DNA of 64,000 bases from Pasteurella multocida subsp. multocida OH4807 (GTDB lineage Bacteria; Pseudomonadota; Gammaproteobacteria; Enterobacterales; Pasteurellaceae), in the NCBI GenBank assembly GCA_000973525.1, contig CP004391.1, positions 1,140,001 through 1,204,000 on the forward strand. The letters run 5' to 3'. This document shows, in pieces, positions 11,492 to 20,558 of the stretch (positions are counted from its first letter, which is position 1; each line of letters begins with the position of its first letter). The notes below the pieces were generated by a model. That model worked only from the letters and a program-made list of their open reading frames with translations. It was not told the origin of the DNA and did no database searches. Both the position numbers and the translations under genes were made by a program.

Positions 11492-11536
11492 ATTGTTTCC
11501 TTAAATCAAAGTAGTAAAGTAAAAAAATAAGCGCAT

Positions 11537-11564
11537 ATTCTACGCTAAATTTTTCAATAGTAAA
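11537..11564 (-). promoter_or_regulatory. Promoter of the purine permease
   Basis: Read on the minus strand, TTTACT (complement of 11559-11564) and TAGAAT (complement of 11537-11542) are 16 bp apart and lie about 50 bases before the permease ATG. The -35 overlaps the PurR-like box. Confidence 0.6.
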
Positions 11565-11573
11565 CGTTTGCGT
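11558..11573 (-). promoter_or_regulatory. PurR operator candidate
   Basis: On the minus strand the 16-mer begins ACGCAAACGTTT, which matches the first 12 positions of the E. coli PurR consensus ACGCAAACGTTTGCGT; the right end is degenerate. It overlaps the -35 element of the purine permease, as expected for repression by PurR with guanine or hypoxanthine. Confidence 0.7.
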
Positions 11574-11601
11574 GACTAATTTTGGTTAAAAAAGCAAAAA
11601 A

Positions 11602-11624
11602 ATTGGCACCCTCTAGGTGCCAAT
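11602..11624 (-). terminator. Terminator of the DUF805 gene
   Basis: ATTGGCACC at 11602-11610 pairs with GGTGCCAAT at 11616-11624. On the minus strand the hairpin is followed by a T-rich run (complement of AAAAAAGCAAAAAA). It lies 20 bases after the stop. Confidence 0.85.
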
Positions 11625-11643
11625 GGATACATGAAAATCAACC

Positions 11644-12048
11644 TTAACTGACCAACGTTGTTTTATTGTGAGATTCATTTTCAAAATCGCGTGCTTTAGG
11701 ATTTTGACCAAAACGATTCATACTGGGTGTGCCTGACAAGCAACATAAAATTAAAAGGACTAATGAACCGAGTGGAATCAGGTTAAGCAAGATCCACCAA
11801 CCACGATAATTAATGTCATGTAAGCGACGAACTGAAACGGCTAATGTTGGCAAAAAGGTAGCGAGAATATAAATACTAGAGAGCACGCCATTTTTCCGTT
11901 CTATATCGAAAGTACCAAGCTTGACATCAATAAAAACCAGTACTGATATGATCAGGAAATGAATCAAACTGTACATCCAAAATTCTTTTCGTCTTGCTCT
12001 TCCACTAAACGTTGCATAATTTTTTAAGACTTTTAAATACCAATTCAT
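11644..12048 (-). CDS. DUF805 family inner-membrane protein
   Basis: This 134-residue protein starts MNWYLKVLKNYATFSGRARRKEFW, the classic DUF805 (YhaH/YhaI-like) N-terminus. Three hydrophobic segments follow, with VSVRRLHDINYRGWW between the second and third, the family's signature. Function is unknown. It is a single gene with its own terminator, transcribed away from galE. The roughly 210 bases between them hold both promoters. Confidence 0.9.
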   Translation of the reverse strand: MNWYLKVLKNYATFSGRARRKEFWMYSLIHFLIISVLVFIDVKLGTFDIERKNGVLSSIYILATFLPTLAVSVRRLHDINYRGWWILLNLIPLGSLVLLILCCLSGTPSMNRFGQNPKARDFENESHNKTTLVS

Positions 12049-12258
12049 TGTATTTCACCCTCAATCAAATAATCATTGTTAAACGAGATTAGTTCATTAA
12101 ATATACTTTTCAATTTACTGAAAAACCCTGTGATAGTAAATGGTGACTTTACTAATTTTTATCCTATTTCTTTCCCTTCAGAGCAGAAAGTTTTATACTG
12201 TGAACAGTTTTTTATTCATAAATAACATTAACAAATTAAAGCAACTAAGGATAGAACT

Positions 12259-13275
12259 ATGGCAATTCTCGTAACTGGTGGGGCAGGTTATATCGGCTCA
12301 CATACTGTTGTTGAACTACTTAATGCAAATAAGGAAGTCGTTGTTTTAGATAATCTTTGCAATTCCTCCCCAAAATCCCTCGAACGTGTTTCTCAAATCA
12401 TAGGTAAAACGGTCAAATTCTATCAAGGCGATATTTTAGATACCGCACTTTTACAAAAAATCTTCGCAGAAAACAAAATTCAATCGGTCATTCACTTCGC
12501 TGGGTTAAAAGCCGTTGGTGAGAGTGTGCAAAAACCAGCAGAATACTATATGAACAACGTGACTGGTTCGTTAGTGTTAATCCAAGAAATGAAAAAAGCA
12601 GGCGTGTGGAATTTTGTATTTAGTTCTTCTGCTACTGTTTATGGCGACCCTGAAATTATTCCAATTACTGAAAGTTGCAAAGTGGGGGGCACAACCAACC
12701 CTTACGGCACATCAAAATTTATGGTGGAACAAATTTTAACAGACGTTGCTAAAGCAAACCCTGAATTTAGTATCACCATCTTACGTTACTTCAACCCAGT
12801 GGGCGCACACGAAAGTGGCTTAATTGGTGAAGATCCAAACGGTATTCCAAACAACTTATTACCTTATATTAGCCAAGTGGCTATCGGCAAATTACCACAA
12901 CTCTCTATTTTTGGTAGCGATTACGATACTCACGATGGCACAGGCGTGCGTGATTATATCCACGTTGTGGATCTTGCCATTGGTCATATTAAAGCCCTTG
13001 ATCGCCACGAAGGTGATTCAGGCTTACATATTTATAATTTAGGAACAGGAACAGGTTATTCCGTATTAGATATGGTCAATGCCTTTGAACAAGCTAACGA
13101 CATCAAAATTCCTTACAAACTGGTGGACCGCCGCCCTGGTGATATCGCTACTTGTTATTCAGATCCAAGTCTAGCGAAAAAAGAACTCGGTTGGACAGCA
13201 GATCGTGGTCTTGACCAAATGATGAAAGACACGTGGAATTGGCAAAAAAATAACCCGAAAGGCTATCGAGAGTAA
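12259..13275 (+). CDS. galE: UDP-glucose 4-epimerase
   Basis: GalE interconverts UDP-glucose and UDP-galactose with bound NAD, feeding LPS and capsule sugars. It has 338 residues, the E. coli length. The Rossmann motif GGAGYIGSH lies at residues 7-15; the catalytic Ser/Tyr/Lys are in SSSATVYG and in YGTSK near residue 150. The start follows a CTAAGGATAG ribosome-binding site. It is separated from ampG by two bases, so it forms an operon with ampG. As in H. influenzae, it is away from galTKM, which suggests a housekeeping role in surface glycan synthesis. Confidence 0.96.
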
Positions 13276-13277
13276 TT

Positions 13278-14561
13278 ATGGAAAATAAACCAAGCTTATT
13301 GTCGCAAATATTTAGCCGTAATATGCTGCTCTGTATTTTTACAGGGTTTAGCTCTGGTTTGCCGTTATATTTGCTCTTCCAAATGGTGCCAGCGTGGTTA
13401 TCCTCCAGTAATGTGGACGTCAAAACCATTGGTTTCTTTACCTTGATTGGTTTCCCTTACACGTGGAAATTTATCATTTCACCCCTCCTCGACCGCTATT
13501 ATCCAAACTTTCTCGGTCGTCGGCGTAGTTGGATGTTTATCACTCAAGTAGGCTTACTCGCGTTGATTGCACTACTCGGTCAATATAACCCAGTAGAAAA
13601 TATTCAAACGGTCGCCATTATTTCGACTGCAATTGCCGTATTTTCTGCGGTGCAAGATATTGTCATTGATGCTTACCGCCGTGAAATTTTAAGCGATGAA
13701 GAACTTGGTTTAGGGAACTCAATCCACGTGAATGCTTACCGTATTTCTGGCTTAATCCCTGGCGGTTTATCCTTAATCCTTGCAGATAGCTTGCCTTGGG
13801 ATATGGTGTTCATTTTCACTGCGTTATTTATGATCCCAGGTTTGATCCTTTCGCTATTCCTCAGCAAAGAACCAAACGTGCCACAAATTGACCGCTCTTT
13901 ACCGTTCTATCATACTTTTGCACTTCCATTTAAAGAGTTCTTTGGTCGTAAAGGTGTTGCTTCCGCATTGGGGTTAATCCTCTTTATCTTCCTGTATAAA
14001 TTTGGTGATTCCCTTGCAACCTCATTACAAACCAAATTTATTTTAGATATGGGCTTCAGCAAAACGGATATCGGCACCGTTGTGAAACTCAACTCACTGT
14101 GGGCATCGATTATTTCAGGAATGCTAGGCGGCATTTTAATGCTACGTATCGGCATTAACCGCTCATTATGGTTATTTGGTTTTGTACAATTAATCACGAT
14201 TCTCGGTTTTGTGTGGATGGCAAGCTACGGCAAGTTCGACACCATTGGTTCATTTGAATTTTTCGTTTTAACCACAGTGATCATCGGTGAATATATTGGT
14301 GTCGGCTTAGGTACTGCAGCATTTGTGGCATTTATGGCGAGAGAAACAAACCCGCTTTATACCGCAACACAACTTGCGATTTTCACCAGTTTAGCGGCAA
14401 TTCCAAGTAAAGTATTCAGCGCATTTTCAGGTGTGATTGTGGCAGATTATGGCTATTACACATTCTTCTGGATTTGTTTCTTTGCCGCAATTCCTGGAAT
14501 GTTAATGCTCTTTAAAGTCGCACCTTGGGGTGCAGAACCTGAAGTCAAAACGGAAAAATAA
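13278..14561 (+). CDS. ampG: AmpG-type muropeptide MFS permease
   Basis: AmpG imports GlcNAc-anhydroMurNAc peptides released during wall turnover, for recycling. The 427-residue protein is an MFS permease with about 12 hydrophobic segments. FSSGLPLYLLFQMVPAWL at the N-terminus and DAYRREILSDEELGLGN near residue 137 are AmpG signatures. It is shorter than E. coli AmpG (491) at the C-terminus, like the H. influenzae form. It sits two bases after galE and upstream of adk, a conserved order in the family. Confidence 0.9.
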   Translation: MENKPSLLSQIFSRNMLLCIFTGFSSGLPLYLLFQMVPAWLSSSNVDVKTIGFFTLIGFPYTWKFIISPLLDRYYPNFLGRRRSWMFITQVGLLALIALLGQYNPVENIQTVAIISTAIAVFSAVQDIVIDAYRREILSDEELGLGNSIHVNAYRISGLIPGGLSLILADSLPWDMVFIFTALFMIPGLILSLFLSKEPNVPQIDRSLPFYHTFALPFKEFFGRKGVASALGLILFIFLYKFGDSLATSLQTKFILDMGFSKTDIGTVVKLNSLWASIISGMLGGILMLRIGINRSLWLFGFVQLITILGFVWMASYGKFDTIGSFEFFVLTTVIIGEYIGVGLGTAAFVAFMARETNPLYTATQLAIFTSLAAIPSKVFSAFSGVIVADYGYYTFFWICFFAAIPGMLMLFKVAPWGAEPEVKTEK

Positions 14562-14583
14562 GCTTCACTGGCTTAGTGGTTGA

Positions 14584-15360
<777 letters not shown>

Positions 15361-15376
15361 TTTGCTTTCATCAAAT

Positions 15377-15405
15377 AAAAAAGGCTGTGTTAAACAGCCT
15401 TTTTT
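15377..15405 (+). terminator. adk terminator
   Basis: AAGGCTGT at 15381-15388 pairs with ACAGCCTT at 15394-15401; an A-run precedes and a T-run follows. It marks the left edge of the ATPase/HNH cassette. Confidence 0.9.
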
Positions 15406-15446
15406 TGTTATCAAGTTAAAAGAGATAATCACTATTAACTTGCTAT

Positions 15447-16355
15447 CTAGATATTTGTCCAAATATGAGTAAAGTTATTTTTTACTGCTTGATATAAAAC
15501 TACTCTCCAATGATTCTTATTATATTCTGGTTTATTAATTATTGAATCTAGAATAATTTCAATACAATCTGTTTCACTAAGTTTAGTGTTGTTTTTCGCC
15601 TGAGTAATCTGAGCAATTAACTCACTTAAATAGGAGGCTGCTCTAGTTGAAAATCGCCTATCTAGATCAAACATGTCAAAATGAAAATTAACTTTTCCTT
15701 TTTTATCTTCACTCCAATTTTCAGGTGGAAAAACATAGTACTTTACAGTACTTGACTCTATATCATTATTATCAATAATGCAATCAGCAAATAACCATTG
15801 TTCCTCGAAAAAACAATCATCATCTAAATAAGGATGTATTAATTGATCATTTCTGTCTGTTGGATAGAAATTTTTTTTATAGCTTTGATTACAAGATTTA
15901 CATATAGGTATTAAGTTATAAGGGGATATTGAATAATATGCAAAATTTGCTTTAGGTAAAAAATGATCTAACTCATTAGGCTCGCCAATTCCACCACAAA
16001 AAGGACATTGTATATTTGGGGTTTTCGCATGATTAATGATTTTGTCATAATAACCGCCACATCGTGCACTAACAAAATAATTTTTGTATAAAGAATGCAT
16101 ATCATGACCTGTCAATGAATTTATTCCTGACGCTCCTAGCTTAATTGGAGTACTAGCATTGCATATATACTTCTTATACTTAAATAAAAGATTCTTCTTT
16201 GCTAATTTAATATAACAATCATAAATCCTTAATAATCCATGCTTATTTTGCATTATTTTTGAGTACATAGCATTATTTTGTGTCATTTTTGTACAGCAAG
16301 ATGCTATAATATCTGAATAATTTTGACAATCAGTGGGTAATTTAATCTTTATCAT
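15447..16355 (-). CDS. HNH endonuclease, PtuB-like partner of an AAA ATPase
   Basis: This 302-residue protein has a zinc-supported HNH domain: CPFC at 117-120, DH at 130-131 (the His is the likely metal-activating base) and CKSC at 152-155, plus NLIPICKSCN between them. The start at 16355 (MIKIKL) follows AAGGGG; an in-frame ATG nine codons upstream at 16382 is possible. Either start overlaps the end of the ATPase gene, so the pair should be translationally coupled. An ATPase followed by an HNH nuclease is the layout of Septu (PtuA-PtuB) anti-phage systems. The DNA is visibly richer in A and T than its neighbours, a sign of horizontal transfer. The Septu assignment is inference. Confidence 0.8.
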   Translation of the reverse strand: MIKIKLPTDCQNYSDIIASCCTKMTQNNAMYSKIMQNKHGLLRIYDCYIKLAKKNLLFKYKKYICNASTPIKLGASGINSLTGHDMHSLYKNYFVSARCGGYYDKIINHAKTPNIQCPFCGGIGEPNELDHFLPKANFAYYSISPYNLIPICKSCNQSYKKNFYPTDRNDQLIHPYLDDDCFFEEQWLFADCIIDNNDIESSTVKYYVFPPENWSEDKKGKVNFHFDMFDLDRRFSTRAASYLSELIAQITQAKNNTKLSETDCIEIILDSIINKPEYNKNHWRVVLYQAVKNNFTHIWTNI

Positions 16356-17895
16356 GACCAAAAGCCCCTTGATTTTTTTCATCTCTTAATCTGATTAGAG
16401 TCTTTAATATTAATTTACCTTCCTTACCTAATTGGTAATTATAACTTTCTAAAATATTTTCATATGTTCCTCCCTTATTTACGGATTCATTGAGTAATTT
16501 ATGAAAACCTGATTTTTCTACTTCTAATCCAAAGACTTCTCTCGTCAAAATTCCGATATTTTCGCCAAAAGTCTCAGTTACAAGCCTACATGCTTTAGTT
16601 TCTATTCCTGTTCGAACAATTTTCCAGATACAAGATTTAGGTATTTCCTGTAACACTACCGGTGAATGAGTTGCAACAATTGCAATAGCATTTCGATTAT
16701 CTAATAATTCAGATAAAGTTCGTATAAAAGCAGATAATAGCGGAGGATGCAAATGGCTTTCTGGCTCATCAAGTAAAACAAGTGTTTTTTCTTCAACCTT
16801 CGCAACTAATTGTGTAATAGTCAATAAAACAAAAGCATGACCTGAACTCATCCGGTTGATAGACTGCAGCACTCTATCTTTACTAGAACATCCATTCATT
16901 AAATTGCTTAAATTCATTTCAGCAAAATTATTGTCAGACTCAAGATTCTGAATTGCTTTAACCCAAAGATCTCTTTTAAAGGAAAAAGATCTACACTCTA
17001 GAAATGACAGCCAAAAATCTTCTTCAAAATATTCTGTTGGCTCTTTTAATTGAGTTTCAGATTTTTTTAGACCAATATAAGAATAATTTTTTTCATCGTT
17101 ATTTGGAATAAATGGATCGAAGACACTAAACGACACGGCGACTAAACGGCTGAAATATTCGTCACTAATCTTTATTGGAGTATTAGTAAAAAACGGTATT
17201 TTTTCCTTCTTATAAAATGCTCCATCTTTATAATCATTTTTATTTATAAATGACTTAATCATTCCGTTAAGTAGTGTTGTTTTTCCAGCACCATTTCTTC
17301 CTATAATTGCATGGATATTAGTACTAGGAGCTGAATTTGCCTTTACATCAAACTCTAGATCTATTTCCCCCATACACTCTTGCCTATTACGAATAAAAGA
17401 AAAAGTAAAATCCGTTAATGGAGATTTGCCTTCTAAAACTCTTCTAAACTGCTCTTTAATCGTCAGCTCACTTACATGTCTCATTAACGAGGTATAAAAA
17501 ACTGGTTCATTTTGAAATTCATCTAAAAGATCAGGATTATAAACAATATCATTCAAGTTTTTTAAGATTATATCTTTTACTTCATTAGAAAATTCAAAAA
17601 TTCTCGAATAGAAATCAACATCTTGACCAAGAGAAATAAATTGATCTGGTAATTTATCAAACACGCTCCCATCAAATCTTTTTTGAATTTCCACATAAGT
17701 TGGAATAGCTTCAACTTGTCCTTTAAAGCCAATCTTAATATTCCCTATATCATGCGGCTCTCCATCACTATCAAAGAAACTCATAAAAAACATAGTAACA
17801 TAGGAATAATCATTCCAATTATCAATTGATAAACAAACTAGGTTTTTAGCATTTTGGGGAGTTAGCTCACCTCTAGTTAATAATTTAAATTGCAT
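16342..17895 (-). CDS. AAA/ABC-type ATPase, PtuA-like, with long N-terminal extension
   Basis: This 517-residue protein is an overcoming-lysogenization-defect/SMC-like ATPase. The Walker A motif GRNGAGKT lies at 199-206, a signature-like MSSGHAF at 349-355, Walker B LVLLDEPES at 372-380 and an H-loop ATH at 408-410. About 190 residues precede Walker A, far more than in canonical PtuA, where it lies near the N-terminus; this part contains NWNDYSYVTMFFMSFFD and may sense a trigger or bind a partner. It has no membrane segment. AAGGAA lies just before the ATG. The HNH gene overlaps its 3' end. No reverse transcriptase is nearby, so it is not an obvious retron. Confidence 0.8.
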   Translation of the reverse strand: MQFKLLTRGELTPQNAKNLVCLSIDNWNDYSYVTMFFMSFFDSDGEPHDIGNIKIGFKGQVEAIPTYVEIQKRFDGSVFDKLPDQFISLGQDVDFYSRIFEFSNEVKDIILKNLNDIVYNPDLLDEFQNEPVFYTSLMRHVSELTIKEQFRRVLEGKSPLTDFTFSFIRNRQECMGEIDLEFDVKANSAPSTNIHAIIGRNGAGKTTLLNGMIKSFINKNDYKDGAFYKKEKIPFFTNTPIKISDEYFSRLVAVSFSVFDPFIPNNDEKNYSYIGLKKSETQLKEPTEYFEEDFWLSFLECRSFSFKRDLWVKAIQNLESDNNFAEMNLSNLMNGCSSKDRVLQSINRMSSGHAFVLLTITQLVAKVEEKTLVLLDEPESHLHPPLLSAFIRTLSELLDNRNAIAIVATHSPVVLQEIPKSCIWKIVRTGIETKACRLVTETFGENIGILTREVFGLEVEKSGFHKLLNESVNKGGTYENILESYNYQLGKEGKLILKTLIRLRDEKNQGAFGHDKD

Positions 17896-17970
17896 GTATT
17901 TCCTTACTAAATGTATATATAAATCCTTATGTTAAGCTTTTATGCATATTTAACGTGTTATTCAATTATA

Positions 17971-18018
17971 AAAAAATCTGCATCTTTAGCTGTTTCTATG
18001 CAACTATTAGATGCAGAT
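17971..18018 (-). terminator. sucCD terminator
   Basis: On the minus strand, ATCTGCATCT (complement of 18009-18018) pairs with AGATGCAGAT (complement of 17976-17985), followed by a T-run. It lies after the sucD stop and forms the right edge of the ATPase/HNH cassette. Confidence 0.75.
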
Positions 18019-18031
18019 CTTAGTATGCGGT

Positions 18032-18901
18032 CTATTTTAAAAGCGATTTTAACGCAGTGCCGATTTCCGCTAGACTACGTACCGTTTTCACGCCAGCTGC
18101 TTCAAGTGCAGCGAATTTTTCATCTGCAGTGCCTTTACCACCACTGATAATAGCACCTGCGTGGCCCATACGTTTGCCTTTTGGTGCAGTCACACCAGCA
18201 ATGTAACTCACAACTGGTTTAGTTACGTATTCTTTAATAAAGGCTGCTGCTTCTTCTTCCGCTGAACCACCAATTTCACCGATCATTACGATGGCTTCAG
18301 TTTGCGGGTCATCTTGGAAGAGTTTTAGAATATCAATAAAGCTTGAACCTGGGATTGGGTCGCCGCCGATACCCACACAAGTCGATTGACCAAAACCCTC
18401 GTCAGTGGTTTGTTTTACTGCCTCATAAGTTAATGTACCTGAACGTGAAACAATACCGATTTTACCTTTTTTGTGAATATTGCCTGGCATAATCCCGATT
18501 TTACATTCTTCAGGGGTAATCACGCCTGGGCAGTTAGGTCCGATCATACGTACACCAGCTTGAGTTAAGCGTTGTTTCACTTGTAGCATATCCAATGTAG
18601 GAATACCTTCAGTGATACAAATCACCAATTTAATGCCCGCATCAATGGCTTCTAAAATCGCATCTTTACAACCCGGTGCCGGTACATAAATGACGGTTGC
18701 GGTTGCACCTGTCGCTTCCACTGCATCACGCACCGTATCAAACACAGGTAAACCTAAATGGGTTGTGCCGCCTTTACCCGGTGAAACACCACCCACTAAT
18801 TGTGTACCATAAGCCAGTGCTTGCTCAGAGTGGAATGTACCTTGACCGCCAGTAAAGCCTTGGCAAATCACTTTTGTATCTTTATTAATTAAAATAGACA
18901 T
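18032..18901 (-). CDS. sucD: Succinyl-CoA synthetase, alpha subunit
   Basis: SucCD converts succinyl-CoA to succinate with substrate-level phosphorylation. The 289-residue alpha subunit has the CoA-binding Rossmann start [16 protein letters not shown] and the phospho-histidine in [14 protein letters not shown] near residue 246. [25 protein letters not shown] is also typical. It begins one base after the sucC stop, so the two are translationally coupled and transcribed in the order sucC-sucD. Confidence 0.96.
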
Positions 18902-18902
18902 A

Positions 18903-20069
18903 TTATTTTCCCTCCGCTGCTTTCACTGCTTGAATCGCAGCATCAGTCAATGTGTTTGCCGCAATAATATTCACGCCACTGTTTGCTAAAATTTCACGAC
19001 CTAAAGGTGCATTGTTACCCTCTAAACGTACAACAACAGGCACGTTCACACCTACTTCATTTACTGCAGCAATAATCCCTTCTGCAATTAAATCACAACG
19101 CACGATGCCACCGAAAATATTCACTAACACCGCTTTTACTGCACTGTCAGATAAAATAATTTTGAAAGCTTCTGCCACACGCTCTTTCGTTGCACCACCG
19201 CCTACATCAAGGAAGTTGGCGGGTTGACCGCCGTGTAATTTAATAATGTCCATTGTGCCCATTGCTAAGCCAGCACCGTTCACCATACAACCGATGTTAC
19301 CTTCAAGAGCCACATAGTTTAATTGATGAGATTCAGCCAATGCTTCACGAGGATCTTCTTGGCTTGGATCTTGCATGGCTTTTAATGCAGGCTGACGGTA
19401 TAAAGCGTTGCTATCAACGACAATTTTCGCATCTAAACAAAGCAAATTGCCTTCTTTGGTTACTACTAACGGGTTCACTTCTAATAACGCTAAATCTTTT
19501 TCTACAAACATTTTCGCCATTTGCACAAAAATATGCGCGAATTGTTTAATTTGATCGCCTTTCAAACCTAATTTAAACGCAAGCTCACGACCTTGATATG
19601 GCATTCCGCCTGTTAATGGATCAATTGCCATTTTATGCAATAAGTGCGGTGTTTTTTCTGCCACTTCTTCGATATTCACCCCACCTTCTGTGGAAACCAT
19701 AAATACAACACGTTGTGAAGCACGATCAAGCACAGCACCTAAATATAATTCACGCTCAATGTTTGAACCTTCTTCTACATAAATGGTGTTTACTGGCTGA
19801 CCATTCGCATCTGTTTGGAAAGTCACGAGGCGTTTGCCTAACCATTGGTCTGCAAAAGCACGCACTTCTGCTTCATTGCGTACTAATTTCACGCCACCTG
19901 CTTTACCACGTCCACCGGCGTGAACTTGGCATTTTGCTACCCAAACATCACCATTGAGTTTTTTAATCGCATCCGCTGCTTCATCTGCGTTTTTACACGC
20001 ATAACCTTTGCCAACTGGCAATTGATATTCAGCAAAAATTTGCTTCGCTTGATACTCGTGTAGATTCAT
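18903..20069 (-). CDS. sucC: Succinyl-CoA synthetase, beta subunit
   Basis: The 388-residue beta subunit, the same length as in E. coli, carries the ATP-grasp domain ([18 protein letters not shown] at the start, [17 protein letters not shown] near 45-61) and the C-terminal ligase domain with [15 protein letters not shown] and [16 protein letters not shown]. It forms an operon with sucD. Unlike the E. coli order sucABCD, a VOC-family gene and a terminator-like hairpin lie between sucB and sucC. Confidence 0.96.
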
Positions 20070-20177
20070 AGCGTTGTATTCCTCATTGTTATATTATCAG
20101 CTCGTATTTACAGCTCGCTTTGTTTATCGCAAGAAATGGCTAAAGTGTCGTTATTTTACGTTATCAAATTGATTGAA

Positions 20178-20558
20178 TTACTGCATTGAATGCAAGCCAA
20201 TTCGATTCCCTTCAGAATCTTCAATAACAGCATAAAACCCTTCGTCACCAATACTTGTTTTTCCTTGTAATAACTTACCACCGAATTTCACAGCTCGTTC
20301 AGCTTCTACCGTACAGTCTTCACAAGAAAAGAAAATAGTGAAATTATTTCCTCTAACAACAGGAAAATCTTTATCTTCGTATAACATTCCACCAATACCA
20401 TATTGTTCATAGTCTATTGAAAAGAAACAAACGCTGACAGGCTCACCTGACGGGCAATCCCCCATTGTAAGTGGGGCTTGAAACACATCTTCATAAAACT
20501 TTTTGGCGCGTTGCAAATTATCAACGTGAATTTCAAACCAAGAAACCGGATTGCTCAT
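20178..20558 (-). CDS. VOC family (glyoxalase-like) protein
   Basis: This 126-residue cytoplasmic protein has the vicinal-oxygen-chelate fold pattern: PVSWFEIHVDNLQRAKKFYEDVF at the start and a second half ending SEGNRIGLHSM. The first-half His (IHV) and late Glu/His could bind metal. The substrate is unknown; relatives include lactoylglutathione lyase-like and antibiotic-binding proteins. It is inserted in the same orientation between sucB and sucC, after a strong hairpin, so it may be transcribed separately from sucAB and read into sucCD. Confidence 0.85.
   Translation of the reverse strand: MSNPVSWFEIHVDNLQRAKKFYEDVFQAPLTMGDCPSGEPVSVCFFSIDYEQYGIGGMLYEDKDFPVVRGNNFTIFFSCEDCTVEAERAVKFGGKLLQGKTSIGDEGFYAVIEDSEGNRIGLHSMQ

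Follow-up and report, generated by a model that had tools for sequence, protein, structure and literature searches.

What are the two genes that separate adk from sucD in Pasteurella multocida subsp. multocida OH4807, and what might they do there? The window analyzed here, 64,000 nucleotides of contig CP004391.1 (positions 1,140,001 to 1,204,000), contains at this junction a gene pair for an ABC/SMC-type ATPase and an HNH nuclease, which a first-pass annotation had read as a mobile copy of the anti-phage system Septu (PtuA-PtuB). Based on the two-gene organization, the intact active-site motifs, the steady pairing of the two genes across distant bacteria and phages, the PtuA/PtuB-like predicted folds and the insertion at a site that is empty in congeners, we propose that the pair was acquired horizontally and forms an anti-phage module of two components that would work like Septu, and give this reading a probability of about 0.75. 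On sequence grounds, the most precise label for the pair is the PDC-M01/lambda Ea59-Ea31 type, and the pair probably belongs to a kind of immune module that has been catalogued before.

Both open reading frames (ORFs) were found, overlapping and on the minus strand, where the first-pass annotation had placed them, except that its start for the HNH gene (16382) was nine codons too far upstream. The homologues begin at the tenth codon of the 15447-16382 ORF, and the gene was therefore given the coordinates listed in Table 1, with which it overlaps the ATPase gene by 14 nucleotides (nt). The four ATPase motifs that had been noted are all present. In an alignment of 54 sequences (the protein itself and 53 picked from 120 listed homologues), Walker A (residues 199-207, apart from A203, which is mostly V), the signature (S350-S-G-H353), Walker B (L374, D376 and E377, residue 375 being L or I) and the H-loop (T409-H-S411) were invariant in 54/54. 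Likewise, residues C117xxC120, D130-H131, N147, C152xxC155, N156 and K160 of the HNH protein, which include the two zinc-binding CxxC pairs noted before, were invariant in all 74 aligned sequences, selected from 107 homologues found and including the protein itself.

The two proteins were compared with the PADLOC models, as had been recommended, and PDC-M01A, PDC-M01B and one PtuA1 model matched. The best match of the ATPase was PDC-M01A (PDLC04235), with 638.1 bits over residues 1-507 of 517; the PtuA1 model PDLC00282 scored 585.6 bits and the next PtuA1 model just 89.6 bits. The HNH protein matched PDC-M01B (PDLC04256) with 262.6 bits over positions 1-279 of the 285 in the model. Both subunits of the PADLOC candidate PDC-M01 are thus matched near full length, as the best matches and by adjacent genes, and we found no difference between PDC-M01 and the pair. 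The best structural matches of both predicted models were chains of PtuAB complexes. Residues 163-456 of the ATPase model aligned to residues 2-403 of an E. coli PtuA chain (8ee4), and the HNH protein has a PtuB-like predicted fold whose matches were chains of 205-258 amino acids (aa). The pair shares with Septu of E. coli ATCC 25922 and EcB88 a two-gene unit in which an ABC ATPase head is joined by an HNH partner, with similar predicted folds. It differs from Septu in that PtuB models are at best marginal for the HNH protein, that the ATPase is about 160 residues longer at the N-terminus than E. coli PtuA 8ee4 and that the HNH protein, with 302 aa, exceeds all of the matched chains. The Septu-like character proposed by the first-pass annotation is therefore supported by PDC-M01A/B, one PtuA1 model and the PtuAB matches, but strict identity with PtuA-PtuB is not established, given the marginal PtuB models and an ATPase architecture unlike that of the solved PtuA chains.

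Homologues of the pair in phage records are chiefly Ea59 and Ea31 of phage lambda, which match the ATPase at 45.6% over 98% and the HNH protein at 28.9% over 93%, respectively. The lambda genes are in the same order as the Pasteurella genes and overlap by 4 nt. In lambda they lie between int/attP and ea47, whereas the Pasteurella pair is a bare chromosomal insert. The two Pasteurella proteins also match phrog_8066 and phrog_10378, families that presumably contain Ea59 and Ea31. Among the 47 viral contigs with relatives, the HNH gene was present in 43, with a weak match in L187 (20.5 bits), and the remaining four stop at or within the ATPase gene. The ATPase also has closer homologues on chromosomes, such as those of Neisseria zalophi (65%) and Vibrio (53%).

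In the genome scan, the best 80 of 498 relatives were kept, and all counts given here for loci use the 72 that remained after eight (L095-L102) were dropped as probable lambda contamination, because their ATPase score of 702.5 bits equals that of lambda Ea59 itself (L001). Some of these contigs are about 48.5 kb long, and several plasmids with matches (H2-H5) are also of the 48.5-kb lambda size. Lambda-like or lambda-sized sequence was seen in assemblies of unrelated bacteria, including Oceanobacillus, Streptomyces and Paenibacillus, and is probably contamination that inflates the counts of Ea59 and Ea31.

The HNH gene follows the ATPase gene in 72/72 loci, with a spacing of -71 to +14 nt, and the two genes overlap in 59 of the 72 when the first possible start is used. 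In every one of these loci the HNH protein is less like that of the window than the ATPase is (medians of 33.5 and 47.3%, respectively). Two database proteins named Pasteurella multocida, a partial ATPase (P0108, 93%) and an HNH protein (P0002, 69%), were also noticed; if they come from one locus, the nuclease there has evolved much more quickly than the ATPase. An additional HNH ORF, partial and from the same family, lies upstream of another intact pair (L083:245-604, 69.8 bits) and is perhaps the remnant of a swapped nuclease.

At E 1e-40, only two of 140 Pasteurellaceae genomes were found to contain the ATPase, those of OH4807 and Pasteurella canis, and in the latter the pair sits behind metH rather than between adk and sucD. 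In E. coli, DNA-level matches occurred in 175 of 5426 genomes, none of them (0) over 80% of the query. The pair of E. coli PSS-13 adjoins Lamassu LmuA and LmuB, in a stretch (L188:6924-12337) that contains conjugation genes and lies near tRNA-Thr and proA; the other chromosomal match examined in E. coli is located behind icd, with a frameshifted prophage integrase next to it. For 20 of the 72 loci, PADLOC models were also run at 1e-25 against the neighbouring proteins of 150-900 aa, 106 in all. One strong match each was obtained for GajA and GajB, in the same locus or in two different ones; PDC-S05 (the RhuM-like gene next to the P. canis pair), PDC-S71 and weaker ATPase matches were among the 25 of 66 families listed. 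Three neighbours matched integrase families (25 of 44 listed).

The position of the pair between adk and sucD was confirmed by Pfam, which identified the surrounding genes as adk, sucD and sucC. In each of five congeners (G001-G005) a gene that we take to be ampG-like, adk (96-99% identity), sucD and sucC are in place and the gap between adk and sucD is short, so that the site is empty in 5/5, as expected for the mobile insert proposed before. This empty site defines the borders of the insert. BLASTN against one congener (G001) matched the left flank up to 15422 and the right flank from 18026, and the two flanks are exactly adjacent there (L016:1491 and L016:1492), with neither duplication nor loss of target sequence. 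The G+C content of the insert is 29.8%, compared to a mean of 39.4% and to 35.8% for the lowest of 562 overlapping windows of the same size elsewhere in the 64 kb, which bears out its description as AT-richer than the core genes. A milder AT-rich dip was observed outside the insert, at 11500-12500 (33.7% G+C over 1 kb). Apart from the two genes, the insert contains just short ORFs; neither a recombinase (integrase or transposase) nor terminal repeats nor a duplicated target were seen, and a transposon was dropped as an explanation on these grounds. The pair was probably acquired horizontally. The claim that it is the only accessory locus of the window was examined by composition and with PADLOC on 46 further proteins of the window (150-900 aa), one of which matched a mad3 model (E=4.2e-31). 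Because related models match the pair, congeners lack it and its composition is atypical, the opposite picture, of a pair unrelated to PtuA/PtuB that is fixed in all strains and core-like in composition, does not hold here.

By analogy, the ABC-type ATPase (Ea59/PtuA-like) would bind ATP, oligomerize and restrain the HNH nuclease (Ea31/PtuB-like). Infection would bring about a change, which the N-terminal region of the ATPase possibly senses, and this would release the nuclease; the freed nuclease would then cut nucleic acid, either phage DNA or host tRNA, and so halt phage production. We infer every element of this scheme, namely expression, complex formation, ATP regulation, trigger, target and protection, and likewise the step from fold to function. 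Septu is known to be controlled by ATP. Several reports bear on the possible target: the Walker and HNH residues of Septu EcB88 are required and tRNA-Tyr is cleaved (PMC13096335), PtuAB of retron Eco7 depletes tRNA-Tyr and Septu of E. coli ATCC 25922 was reported to target nicked DNA (PMC11555353).

Several observations weigh against a Septu-like defence function. SMC heads and ABC transporters also have the fold of the ATPase. The structural matches leave its first ~155 residues uncovered, and its regulation may therefore differ; a sequence search of the PDB with residues 1-160 gave no match. With Foldseek alone, the best E value for the HNH model was 1.4e-3, above 0.001. PtuB sequence models, six of which were tried singly, appear to match the HNH protein poorly: NF041761 did not match at 1e-3, none of PDLC00332, 00328, 00319 and 00343 hit the locus with E values allowed up to 10, and PDLC00316 matched the HNH core locally and marginally (15.3 bits, E=0.009). 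No PtuB was among the PADLOC matches listed for the pair (25 of 45 families). For reference, Septu-type pairs were collected from other Pasteurellaceae with a PtuB model whose cut-off was reached in 0/140 genomes; three HNH proteins and two ATPases from six such pairs were scanned, and many PtuB1 and PtuA1 models matched them strongly. The association of the relatives with defence and mobile genes is real but modest in the loci sampled. Among the open-licence PubMed Central (PMC) matches listed, judged by title and start of abstract, none tests PDC-M01 or Ea59-Ea31, and none joins the lambda pair to Septu; the only papers listed under the name PDC-M01 are two genome surveys (PMC11811056 and PMC11758030).

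Three other explanations have to be considered. That the pair is a phage-derived "moron", with a role in lysogeny, DNA processing or prophage-serving exclusion, and that it is stranded in Pasteurella as a relic with no selected role in defence, would fit the location of the pair by int/attP in lambda and lambdoid phages and the relatives on viral contigs. The Pasteurella copy, however, is flanked by housekeeping genes, and judging by its sequence neither gene is decayed, as both frames are open and the catalytic residues are kept. Relatives also occur near Lamassu, Gabija-type or RhuM-type genes, and the exclusion of other phages would count as defence anyway; we therefore regard this explanation as unlikely. 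That the pair is a true type I Septu or represents the effectors of a type I-A retron is quite unlikely, even though PDLC00282 scores highly, the folds resemble PtuA and PtuB, the PtuAB effector of retron I-A (Ec78/Ec83) has structural matches to the pair and, in a Bacillus cereus survey, 41 PDC-M01 calls were counted as duplicates of Septu (PMC11811056). Against it are the PtuB results and the extra N-terminal sequence of the ATPase. The retron was dropped because the NCBIfam retron PtuA model reached 51 bits, far short of its cut-off of 500, and no reverse transcriptase-like ORF was seen by inspection among the 16 ORFs overlapping 13500-20500. Rfam gave three matches within 15300-18150, all below gathering.

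It is very unlikely, finally, that the module is directed not at phage but at plasmid or transforming DNA entering cells of this naturally transformable family. Uptake-type sequences are abundant here and the insert splits one of them (see below), but nothing in the proteins is specific to DNA uptake, and the relatives are spread over many other bacteria and phages.

A Septu-like anti-phage module remains our preferred reading, by which Pasteurella has gained a probable phage-defence module whose clean empty site in congeners allows the gain to be studied. Through it, PDC-M01, a catalogued candidate, is linked with two genes of phage lambda as well as with solved structures of Septu. We tentatively suggest, at slightly under even odds, that Ea59-Ea31/PDC-M01 represents a separate branch within the Septu superfamily, occurring both in bacteria and in phages and having its own N-terminal sensing region, that the lambda pair is a prophage-borne immune module of Septu type and that the faster-changing HNH protein sets the target. 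This corollary on the lambda pair is the most interesting part, as a role of Ea59-Ea31 can be tested directly in a very well-known phage-host pair.

Table 1. Positions of the gene pair and associated features within the 64,000-nt window.
Feature	Position	Strand	Remarks
Inserted segment	15423..18025	.	2603 bp; congeners lack it at the adk-sucD junction
ABC/SMC-type ATPase, PDC-M01A/PtuA-like, lambda Ea59 homologue	16342..17895	-	517 aa
HNH zinc protein, PDC-M01B/PtuB-like fold, lambda Ea31 homologue	15447..16355	-	302 aa
Presumed cassette promoter and leader	17896..17967	-	AAGGA, six bases, then the ATPase ATG
adk hairpin terminator	15377..15405	readable on both strands	z -5.8
Hairpin and U-run 3' of sucD, inside insert	about 17971..18021	-	-23.1 kcal/mol; z -5.6
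AAAAG, left half of the split AAGTGCGGT-core sequence	15418..15422	+	right half TGCGGT at 18026-18031

A promoter scan of the cassette found sites no more frequently than in shuffled sequences. The terminators of core genes that had been described on both sides of the pair are there, but only the adk hairpin lies outside the insert. This hairpin, which stays on the adk side, is also conserved in the congeners, within their short gap between adk and sucD, and is probably the ancestral terminator common to the convergent adk and sucD. The hairpin on the sucD side lies within the borders of the insert and therefore probably arrived with it; it is probably a sucCD terminator that insulates the cassette. 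The cassette thus seems to have brought its own insulator, and sucCD has probably swapped the hairpin common with adk for the new, insert-borne one.

The sequence split by the insert, AAGTGCGGT, is intact at the adk-sucD junction of four of the five congeners, and we take it to be the Pasteurellaceae DNA-uptake signal. The 9-mer occurs 29 times in the window, compared to 0.41 expected, and there are 181 longer uptake-type matches in the genome. The split is a hint, and no more, that the cassette was brought by recombination of taken-up DNA. Uptake sequences as insertion sites of such pairs were considered and set aside as unsupported, as the intact core is absent at the junctions of the P. canis pair, where a split core is possible. 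We also noticed that an NgoPII-type restriction enzyme (Pfam; L139:651-1484) is found behind metH in congener G001, the position that in P. canis (G002) is taken by the PDC-M01 pair and the RhuM-like gene (L045:7656-11401), and that this position may be a defence hotspot in the genus.
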